A DNA stretch of 64,000 bases, from positions 1 to 64,000 of the forward strand of contig NZ_BJCC01000017.1 of NCBI RefSeq assembly GCF_004309355.1, read 5' to 3'. The translations under genes and the position numbers were made by a program. The stretch comes from Enterococcus florum. GTDB taxonomy: Bacteria; Bacillota; Bacilli; Lactobacillales; Enterococcaceae. The notes below the pieces were generated by a model that searched no databases, was not told where the DNA came from, and worked only from the letters and a program-made list of their open reading frames with translations. Positions 8,391 through 10,202 of this stretch are shown here, piece after piece (the stretch's first letter is position 1; each line of letters starts with the position of its first letter).

Positions 8391-9893
8391 TTACCCACCT
8401 AAGTGAATCTGTTTGGTACTGACTGCTTCAACAAAATGCTGATCGTGCTCGATCACTAGCATCGATGGGCGAACGCGCTGGATCAGCTGGACGATCTGCT
8501 GCTGGTTGAACACATCCAAATAATTCAACGGCTCGTCCCAGATATATAAATCTGCAGGCTGCGACAATGACTTGGCCAGTTCGATCTTTTTCCGCTGTCC
8601 CATGCTCATCTGCTCGATCCGATTCTCAAAAACGTTGCGCTCCATCCCCAGCTTGTGCAGGTTGCCGAGAAATATCGAGTAATCCAAGCCCTCCCGCAGC
8701 GCAAACTCCTGCAGCGTGCCATGGTTGTCTTCGTATTTTTGACGGACATAGCTGATGACGATGCCTTTGGGCAGAAAAATATTGCCGGACCATTCGCCTG
8801 GAAAGCTTCCTATCAAGGCTTGGACCAGCGCACTTTTCCCGCTGCCGTTTTTGCCGGTGATTGCCAGGCATTCTCCGCGATTCAGCTCAAAGCGGATTTT
8901 TTCAAACAACACCTGCCCATCGAAAGCCAAGCGTAGATCTTCTACTTGAATCAGCCGCTGGTGATGGCTGGGCTCCCAGCACATGGATAGTCCGTCGATG
9001 GTCTCAATGTTCTTCAGCAGCTTTTCCTTTTCTCCGATCTGGCCTTCCACCCGCTGCAGGATCGCCTTGGAGCGCTTCATCATCCGTGCGGCATCAGCCC
9101 CGATCGCACCGGGACTGACCCGGCGGTATTCGGTGTCGATAAACCCCGTGGATTTGTTCAATTTGTCCGTTTCACGAGAAGCAGACCAGGCCGCTTTTTC
9201 TCGTGCAGTCTGCTGCAGTCGGCTTATTTCCTTTTTAAGCTTAATGTTTTGTGCCTGTTCAAAGGCATCTTGCCTTGCTTTTTGTTCCTCATAGGTGGAA
9301 AAATTGCCTTGGTACAGCACCAGCTGGCTTTTTTCGATCGCTAAAATGTGATCAACTGTTTCATCCAAAAACCGCCGATCGTGGCTGACCAAGATGTATC
9401 CTTGCTTCTTTCTCCGCAAATAACGGGCGACCTGTTGCCGGCCCACCACATCCAGGTGGTTGGTCGGCTCATCGATCAGCGGAAACCGGCCTTCTTCAGT
9501 AAATAAATTTGCCAGCAGCACCTTGGTCTGTTCCCCGCCCGACAAAGTCTCGAAAGGACGCCAGAGGACCTCGGGATCACATTCCAGCAAATTCAATTCC
9601 CGCTCCATCTGCCATAGTTCCGAGTCGCTGTGCTCTTGCAGCGCATAATAAGTTAATTGTGTCGGATCGTGAATGGCTAAAGGAAAATAGACGAATTCCA
9701 GCGTGTGATGAATACTGCCCTGATAAGGCAACTGATGCTGCAGCAGCTTCAAGAGCGTCGTTTTCCCCCGGCCATTTCGCCCGACTAAGCCCAGCTTCCA
9801 TTGTTCGTCGATGATCAGCTGCGCATCGTCGAACAGCAACGTGCCTAATTGATCATAGCCAAACGTTAAATGATTAATATTGATTATTGTCAT
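8391..9893 (-). CDS. Lsa-type ABC-F ribosomal protection protein
   Basis: This 500-residue soluble protein has two ATPase domains and no membrane part. NBD1 has GRNGRGKTT (38-46), LSGGE (117-121) and LIDEPTNHLD; NBD2 has GKNGSGKSA, MSMGQ and IWDEPLNYLD. A basic linker lies between them. Length and motifs match E. faecalis Lsa(A) closely, a family that dislodges lincosamides, streptogramin A and pleuromutilins from the ribosome. I place the ATG at 9893 after GAGGTG; an in-frame GTG at 9905 abuts that site. The leader carries an attenuator. The resistance spectrum is inferred. Confidence 0.9.
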   Translation of the reverse strand: MTIININHLTFGYDQLGTLLFDDAQLIIDEQWKLGLVGRNGRGKTTLLKLLQHQLPYQGSIHHTLEFVYFPLAIHDPTQLTYYALQEHSDSELWQMERELNLLECDPEVLWRPFETLSGGEQTKVLLANLFTEEGRFPLIDEPTNHLDVVGRQQVARYLRRKKQGYILVSHDRRFLDETVDHILAIEKSQLVLYQGNFSTYEEQKARQDAFEQAQNIKLKKEISRLQQTAREKAAWSASRETDKLNKSTGFIDTEYRRVSPGAIGADAARMMKRSKAILQRVEGQIGEKEKLLKNIETIDGLSMCWEPSHHQRLIQVEDLRLAFDGQVLFEKIRFELNRGECLAITGKNGSGKSALVQALIGSFPGEWSGNIFLPKGIVISYVRQKYEDNHGTLQEFALREGLDYSIFLGNLHKLGMERNVFENRIEQMSMGQRKKIELAKSLSQPADLYIWDEPLNYLDVFNQQQIVQLIQRVRPSMLVIEHDQHFVEAVSTKQIHLGG

Positions 9894-9931
9894 CGTGGAT
9901 AACACCTCACAGTGACCTCTTCCCAGAAGTC

Positions 9932-9966
9932 AAAAAACCTCCAGTTATTCTCAAACAACTGGAGGT
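9932..9966 (-). terminator. Attenuator hairpin in the ABC-F leader
   Basis: ACCTCCAGTT and AACTGGAGGT form a perfect 10-bp stem with a 10-nt loop, followed on the minus strand by TTTTTT. It ends about 40 bases before the ABC-F start and downstream of the gene's promoter, so it must be read through for expression. Confidence 0.85.
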
Positions 9967-10126
9967 CGAGCGCTTTTCCGATTCACGAGACGTAGAAAAT
10001 TGCCGCGTCAAAAAAACACTGCAGCCACGTCGCAAAGGATGCCTTCGTTCATTCCACCAATCGTTCGAAAATCTGCACACTGCTCCCTTGGTCATCTCCA
10101 TGGTACAGTCTGAATGCAGCTTCTAC

Positions 10127-10147
10127 TTAGTTGGTGAACTTACGCAT
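10127..10147 (-). CDS. Leader peptide MRKFTN (uORF)
   Basis: Six codons and a TAA stop lie about 20 bases after the predicted transcription start, with GAGGGG six bases before the ATG. Its place between a strong promoter and an intrinsic terminator ahead of an antibiotic-type ABC-F gene is the layout of ribosome-stalling attenuators such as those of other ABC-F and erm genes. The function is inferred from this layout; no stalling motif is known to me in this peptide. Confidence 0.6.
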   Translation of the reverse strand: MRKFTN

Positions 10148-10173
10148 TGGGACCCCTCGCTTTCTGTACTTCT

Positions 10174-10202
10174 ACTATATCAAGAAAACGAAATCGAGTC
10201 AA
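10174..10202 (-). promoter_or_regulatory. Promoter of the ABC-F gene
   Basis: On the minus strand TTGACT, a 17-base spacer and TATAGT form a strong sigma-A promoter about 280 bases before the ABC-F start. Confidence 0.82.

Follow-up and report, generated by a model that had tools for sequence, protein, structure and literature searches.

Lsa-type ABC-F proteins free ribosomes from antibiotics, and a gene for a putative member of this group lies on the minus strand of the window, the stretch of 64,000 nucleotides of Enterococcus florum DNA analysed here. Regarding the region ahead of this gene, an earlier note made from the sequence alone had pointed to a very short upstream open reading frame (uORF) followed by a terminator, which raises the question of whether the leader couples the state of the ribosome to transcription of the resistance gene. 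The comparison of leaders described below suggests that it does: an RNA switch apparently responds to a ribosome stalled by a drug on the very short reading frame, and only then permits copying of the gene. The leader is therefore read as a ribosome-mediated transcription attenuator of the vmlR/lmo0919 kind, with a probability of roughly 0.83, the drug-dependent step being deduced from precedent and protein homology.

The Lsa-Type Gene and the Parts of Its Leader

The nearest family of the encoded protein is Lsa, as the earlier note had it, although the closest NCBIfam profile (Lsa, NF000167) is matched with 731.5 bits, below its cut-off of 750. The cut-off of the broader ribo_prot_ABC_F profile is passed, and the nearest solved structure is Lsa(A), chain 7nhk. 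By this relationship, the gene is a putative antibiotic-resistance ABC-F gene of Lsa type; a second Lsa paralogue, 59% identical, is present in the same genome (G000:C34). ATG at 9893 is a likelier start than GTG at 9905, which falls within the gene's own Shine-Dalgarno sequence, GAGGTG. In order of transcription, the parts are as follows.

10202-10174, minus strand: promoter TTGACT-17-TATAGT, with TG ahead of the -10 (consensus scan)
10160-10032, minus strand: long anti-antiterminator hairpin including its apical stem (minimum free energy (MFE) fold and co-variation)
10160-10152 with 10040-10032, minus strand: Shine-Dalgarno helix, the hairpin base, which sequesters the uORF Shine-Dalgarno sequence (MFE)
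10158-10153, minus strand: Shine-Dalgarno sequence GAGGGG of the uORF, 5 bases ahead of ATG (sequence)
10147-10127, minus strand: uORF ATGCGTAAGTTCACCAACTAA, read as ATG CGT AAG TTC ACC AAC TAA, MRKFTN* (sequence; placement, start and stop conserved in relatives)
10138-10130 with 10062-10054, minus strand: helix of uORF codons 4-6 (MFE; class A alignment A3)
10123-10115 with 10077-10067, minus strand: helix of GAAGCTGCA (MFE; A3)
10072-10054, minus strand: antiterminator strand ATTTTCGAACGATTGGTGG (pairing and permutation test)
9967-9936, minus strand (9967-9932 with the T tract): intrinsic terminator hairpin T2, -19.3 kcal/mol
9965-9947, minus strand: antiterminator partner CCTCCAGTTGTTTGAGAAT, inside the T2 5' arm and loop (pairing and permutation test)
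8391-9893, minus strand: Lsa-family ABC-F gene, mechanically called as an open reading frame at 8391-9905 (profile and structure match)

The promoter, the uORF with its well-spaced GAGGGG, and the perfect 10-bp terminator with six T residues followed by the ABC-F start had all been named in the earlier note and are present; the distance between uORF and terminator, put there at about 160 bases, is 159. The core of T2 is formed by ACCTCCAGTT and AACTGGAGGT, its T residues lie at 9937-9932, and the ABC-F gene starts shortly after it. Counted singly in this stretch, such features occur at chance level, with one promoter against 1.1 (sd 1.0) and one terminator against 0.7 (sd 0.9) in shuffled sequences. 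The fold of the leader has a z score of -3.36, none of 200 shuffles folding as well, and the uORF Shine-Dalgarno sequence has a mean unpaired probability of 0.002 once the hairpin domain is complete. No T tract immediately follows the closing strand AUCCUUUGC (10040-10032), a run of seven T residues (10016-10010) beginning 16 bases further on; the long hairpin of the window probably serves only as an anti-antiterminator. A further small hairpin was seen by eye at 9931-9914 (minus strand), between T2 and the lsa Shine-Dalgarno sequence, with similar ones in L007-L009. Elsewhere in the window, a TPP riboswitch lies at 45460-45370 on the minus strand (Rfam RF00059, 66.4 bits).

A Leader Family with Two Classes of uORF

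The RNA family to which this leader belongs was collected as 98 leaders from 86 genomes, each leader with a Shine-Dalgarno sequence and, in the expected position, a start codon that is soon followed by a stop in frame. In the shared core, GAGGGAUC and the start codon are followed by a stop only a few codons on; next come GAAGCUGCA and GUGCAGAUUUUC, with the variable apical hairpin between them, and then the antiterminator strand. The anchors of four leaders (L073, L105, L107 and L111) were placed by hand. Leaders were classified by an AUG 11-12 bases or a UUG 12-14 bases past the Shine-Dalgarno sequence, and all 98 received a class. Class A comprises 13 leaders (the window and 12 others) with an AUG-started uORF of 6 or 7 codons, encoding MRKFTN, MRNFTK, MRTFTN, MRYFTK, MINFAK, MIIITK, MIDSSVK, MYYLSVK or MFYSSMK. 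Class B comprises 85 leaders with a UUG-started uORF of three codons in 84 cases and two codons in one; in 15 of them, an AUG in the same frame precedes the UUG by six bases and, being too close to the Shine-Dalgarno sequence, is unlikely to be the start. A promoter-like score of at least 9 of 12 was reached in 54 of the 98 leaders versus 7 of 67 control stretches lying 120 bases farther upstream. The earlier note had read the locus as a uORF-containing transcription attenuator ahead of an Lsa-type gene and had proposed looking for conservation of uORF and terminator among orthologous leaders; both are conserved, and the attenuator reading is supported by the conserved arrangement.

Of the 13 genomes that have a class A leader, 12 also have one of class B; the exception, G424, was searched with the class A model only. 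A protein tree built by a quick method from 90 sequences, of which 11 are class A rows and from which L132 is absent, separates the class A proteins from the rest by one branch that has full SH-aLRT support; the six-codon length of the window's uORF is a variant of one paralogue clade.

Covariance models were built from class B (R1) and class A (R2). R1 matched 72 of 395 genomes and 20 of 80 genera of the order, and R2 76 of 105 genomes and 14 of 17 genera of the family; weak matches are lost under the stricter filters of these scans, and R1 did not detect the class A leader in the window's own genome. Judged from such matches, the switch appears to occur in most sampled genomes of its bacterial family. 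One scan of genome contigs yielded five loci, two of them from the close relatives Enterococcus sp. 669A and E. alishanensis. Across the phylum, R1 matched 3 of 398 genomes, one of them falsely, and under the stricter filters nothing credible was found with R1 outside the order among these 398; L142 (30.7 bits, outside the order) was rejected, as it sits within a long channel-like reading frame. Among the 70 R1 elements fetched (the 72 R1 genomes minus G021 and G022, already included as L012 and L024), UUG stands at the expected place in all, and 68 are followed by an Lsa gene, the Lsa match beginning 37-184 bases past the R1 end. The element therefore goes with lsa genes in the sampled genomes. 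L083 and L104, from one genus, are without an Lsa gene, L083 retaining an apparent remnant of the gene start, and no Lsa gene follows the class A leader L123 in G003.

E. raffinosus and E. gilvus also carry class B leaders on megaplasmids, with scores of 158 and 153 bits. One lsa(B) plasmid, one lsa(E) plasmid and two lactobacillus plasmids gave no credible R1 or R2 match, the best score in this set being 16.4 bits (L155, E 0.023). Rfam at gathering scores gave no leader match in the window or in the loci of seven relatives; an L10 leader matched in the L012 locus lies elsewhere than the lsa leader, and at E up to 10 the only two hits, NsiR1 (18.6 bits, gathering score 39) and DUF805b (10.9 bits, gathering score 35.6), are far below threshold and chance-like.

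In three Lactobacillales leaders (L025, L026 and L154), a similar UUG-started uORF precedes Lsa-like genes (44-46% identical), and a TAATCTTG/CAAGATTA pairing is visible by eye; the uORF of L025 and L026 is TTG CGT CTT then TAA (MRL*), and R1 scores L026 at just 18 bits. The mobile lsa(E) leader (L156, with its relative L027) contains, by eye, its own short uORF, MYNFSC*, and does not match the window's leader family.

Folding and Co-Variation of the Long Hairpin

When 33 leaders were folded singly, the MFE structure was mainly one long hairpin, the 5' arm of which holds the Shine-Dalgarno sequence, start, codons and stop of the uORF and the 3' arm of which holds the antiterminator strand. Aligned together with MAFFT, all 34 leaders yielded a poor consensus of 15 pairs and -1.56 kcal/mol, owing to misalignment between the two uORF classes; the leaders were split into a class B alignment, A2 (23 of 24 sequences, L012 being excluded), and a class A alignment, A3 (10 sequences). 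In A2, 89.6% of the cells of 43 pairs are paired, with 10 doubly changed pairs versus 5.0 and 22 doubly changed cells versus 7.7 after shuffling, values that none of 500 shuffles reached. In A3, 96.4% of the cells of 36 pairs are paired (0 of 500 shuffles as high) and three pairs are doubly changed versus 0.7 (0 of 500); the support is weaker on two of five measures, pair types and the covariation score, for which 46 and 2 of 500 shuffles, respectively, were as high. A larger class B alignment, A5 (76 of 85 sources, 74 distinct), contains 100 doubly changed cells versus 38.3 (0 of 500), and a slide by one column lowers pairing from 86.2% to 56.6-58.4%; since A5 was aligned to the R1 model (threshold E 1e-13, by which the 9 weakest sources were dropped), it favours the structure of that model.

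In the completed hairpin, the median unpaired probability of the uORF Shine-Dalgarno sequence is 0.04 in class A and 0.05 in class B, and it exceeds 0.5 in 3 of 13 and 0 of 85 leaders, respectively. The base of the class B hairpin is formed by GAGGGAUC with GGUCUCUU and is followed by T-rich sequence, and therefore this hairpin itself may be a first terminator, T1. Somewhere in the 50-base zone after the hairpin, at least five consecutive T residues occur in 81 of the 85 class B leaders and in 8 of the 13 of class A, counts for which the zone had no control. The GAAGCUGCA/GUGCAGAUUUUC part is conserved beyond the need for pairing, and the 3' strand of P1, GUGCAGAUUUUC, is near-invariant in A5, which perhaps reflects a polymerase pause.

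Exclusive Pairing of the Antiterminator Strand with T2

The earlier note had proposed an antiterminator between TGGAG (10100-10096) and CTCCA of the terminator arm. This pairing comprises just five pairs and was rejected, no other class A leader having both parts: TGGAG is located in the apical stem of the window hairpin, L002-L005 are without it, and the other class A terminators examined are without CTCCA. The actual antiterminator strand is 10072-10054, which pairs with 9965-9947; against the T2 5' arm and loop, 18 of its 19 positions pair, with a stacking sum of -24.4 kcal/mol. In an ungapped permutation test of 60 distinct antiterminator strands against downstream regions (the last 110 bases before the gene, a limit that penalises L070, L084, L092 and L132 with their distant T2), a strand and its own partner had a mean of -18.6 kcal/mol versus -14.3 (sd 0.41) when permuted, a value reached in none of 10,000 permutations. 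The window's own downstream region is the best of the 60 partners for its strand. Across the set, the own partner ranks first in 8 and among the top three in 20 of 60, first ranks being rare because many antiterminator strands are near-identical. Compensated changes are visible in L012 (E. faecalis), L048, L065, L108, L111 and L122. An earlier shuffle test of energies, in which long bulges were allowed, gave a weak result: in 9 of 34 leaders, no more than 2 of 200 shuffles did as well. The long hairpin and the antiterminator:T2 helix are mutually exclusive, and both co-vary.

T2 was found in 68 of the 91 leaders having a located gene; the finder failed in 23 and, at least for L010 and L132, put T2 in the wrong place. 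The remaining 7 of the 98 leaders, with no gene located by the start pattern, stand outside the T2, permutation and footprint sets; three of them (L083, L104 and L123) have lost the gene and four (L063, L099, L106 and L110) have an Lsa gene. For the 68 leaders, the RNA was folded up to the T2 loop with or without a simulated ribosome footprint, and at least six expected antiterminator pairs were scored as antiterminator pairing. In the free state, such pairing is predicted in 2 of 12 class A leaders (L003 and L122) and 0 of 56 class B leaders, and, when the footprint covers the start codon, in 11 of 12 and 54 of 56; the threshold is permissive, since 12 of 36 (class A) and 88 of 168 (class B) foldings with a shuffled T2 arm still reach six pairs. 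A footprint 45 bases upstream leaves the free state as it was (2 of 12 and 0 of 56). Moved to 30 bases downstream of the start, the footprint continues to open 9 of 12 and 37 of 56 leaders, and in the window nearly any footprint from -18 to +42 opens antiterminator pairing; therefore, the simulation lacks the resolution to assign the stall to a given codon.

Evidence for Translation of the uORF

As mentioned above, the uORF lies within a paired arm, and its conservation was compared with that of its pairing partners in A5, in which rows are biased toward UUG by the construction of R1 from UUG leaders. The UUG start is invariant on the coding side (76 of 76), while its partners have entropies of 1.50, 1.31 and 0.69 bits and the three columns are unpaired in 14, 16 and 1 rows, gaps counted. 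In the stop columns, the commonest base is found in 75, 71 and 76 of 76 rows, with partner entropies of 1.10, 1.05 and 0.80 bits. The Shine-Dalgarno columns are invariant and say less, because their partners vary little (at most 0.93 bits). That the start codons are constant and their partners drift supports translation of the uORF. From the start codon to GCUGCA, the distance is 25-28 bases in 87 of 98 leaders despite the twofold difference in uORF length, a recognisable GCUGCA motif being absent in the other 11. The pattern supports the view that start and stop are kept for translation and the remaining uORF bases for pairing; the peptide itself is not conserved in sequence.

Proposed Mechanism and Alternative Explanations

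In the proposed mechanism, ribosomes would clear the few codons at once when no drug is present, and the long hairpin would close; T2 would then form and transcription would stop. In the presence of a lincosamide, streptogramin A or pleuromutilin drug, a ribosome would be held on or near the start codon, and its footprint would keep the 5' arm open, allowing the antiterminator strand to pair with T2 and the ABC-F gene to be transcribed. Stalls by these drug classes are probably what is sensed, an assignment based on the homology of the protein and on published cases. Sensing would need a held ribosome at the uORF, independent of the peptide sequence, and the ribosome would have to load in the brief time while polymerase is still within the leader, because the Shine-Dalgarno sequence is buried once the hairpin closes.

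The same attenuator might carry a peptide-specific sensor, in which residues such as those of MRKFTN are needed for arrest, as in erm or msrD leaders. This is improbable. Such a sensor would suit the terminal K or N before the stop in all 13 class A uORFs and the frequency of MKN, the commonest class B peptide (52 of 85), but the residues differ among leaders of the same RNA architecture. The six-codon peptide emphasised in the earlier note varies in sequence among the 13 class A leaders, and its codons 4-6 sit in a kept helix with the antiterminator strand, 100% paired in the ten leaders of A3; in class B, co-variation with the pairing partner is seen at the last base of codon 3 (CG in 25 and UA in 24 of 74 rows). 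A drug or metabolite riboswitch, or a protein-binding leader, with the uORF as a by-product of the stem sequence, is given very little credence: it would account for the excess conservation of the GAAGCUGCA/GUGCAGAUUUUC part, whereas the apical part is a variable hairpin, the start codon is fixed while its partners drift, and Rfam returned no leader match at gathering scores for the window and seven relatives' loci. It is scarcely credible that the leader is constitutive, with ordinary unregulated terminators and an untranslated uORF; the single features are at chance level in the window alone, as that explanation would have it, but the two mutually exclusive helices both co-vary and the Shine-Dalgarno sequence, start and stop are conserved.

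Given ribosome-mediated attenuation, a further suggestion, tentative and rather doubtful, concerns those enterococci with both classes, in which a class B UUG three-codon sensor, the hairpin of which is probably a first terminator in its own right, stands against a class A AUG sensor of six to seven codons, and in which the class A hairpin of some leaders, the window included, has lost an adjacent T tract. Such differently built sensors might give a graded drug response with two thresholds, the buried Shine-Dalgarno sequence making each a one-shot test; if so, each sensor would test once per polymerase passage whether a ribosome is held.

lsa(A) of Enterococcus faecalis and Comparison with Known Systems

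The family includes the leader of E. faecalis lsa(A), L012, the gene product of which is near-identical to 7nhk. LsaA is counted, in the excerpts available of PMC9226507, among the chromosomal ABC-F proteins behind the intrinsic resistance of their species. A full-text literature search found no experimental account of lsa gene induction, just a computed uORF (PMC10201436). According to the available part of that report, uORF4u proposed MAGN as the LsaA uORF, from a homologue set cut at 80% identity (PMC10201436). The likeness to the present family is a short uORF ahead of lsa(A), and the difference is in the placement of MAGN (ATGGCGGGGAACTAG, L012 3313-3299, minus strand), which falls outside the conserved hairpin and ahead of the likely promoter. 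The conserved uORF of L012 is UUG AAA AUU UAA, MKI* (3171-3160, minus strand). Its Shine-Dalgarno sequence begins 21 bases after the -10 of a promoter-like TTGACA-17-TAAATT (3235-3207), and MAGN ends 63 bases before the -35 of the same element. The promoter scan of L012 counts consensus matches, of which 2 were found versus 1.4 in shuffles, and the second match (9 of 12, 3301-3272) overlaps the MAGN stop. These positions strongly suggest, short of proof, that the lsa(A) uORF is MKI* and not MAGN.

Among the published systems compared here, lmo0919 belongs to an ABC-F subfamily other than Lsa. By sequence features, the window leader appears to match attenuators of the vmlR/lmo0919 type in its uORF, terminator, exclusive antiterminator and ABC-F gene. 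The vmlR leader of Bacillus subtilis is described, in the available excerpts, as a three-codon uORF inside an anti-antiterminator hairpin with a terminator and an alternative antiterminator, stalling taking place at initiation and variant uORF peptides still working; it resembles the window leader in this layout and in an ABC-F gene for the same drug classes, and it differs in its single-stranded uORF Shine-Dalgarno sequence, which is paired in the hairpin base here, and in its three codons against six in the window (PMC9226507). In the excerpts on rli53/lmo0919 (vgaL) of Listeria, a three-residue uORF overlaps the anti-antiterminator and antitermination depends on lincomycin (PMC7154746, PMC5418344); set beside it by description, the present leader has the same short uORF in the anti-antiterminator, terminator, antiterminator and ABC-F gene (PMC7154746). 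The paralogous ABC-F genes are5sc and tiaA of Streptomyces coelicolor each have their own uORF attenuator, with start-codon toeprints in the presence of lincosamide, streptogramin A and pleuromutilin, as far as the excerpt goes; the are5sc uORF starts with TTG, as in the class B UUG leaders, and the genes differ in being from an actinomycete, the likeness being one of description and not of leader sequence (PMC12421871). The kind of mechanism is already known from vmlR and lmo0919, and the lsa leader family, which matches no Rfam family, is a new member of it. With its conserved and named RNA parts and the suggested correction of the lsa(A) uORF, it makes the induction of lsa genes directly testable.
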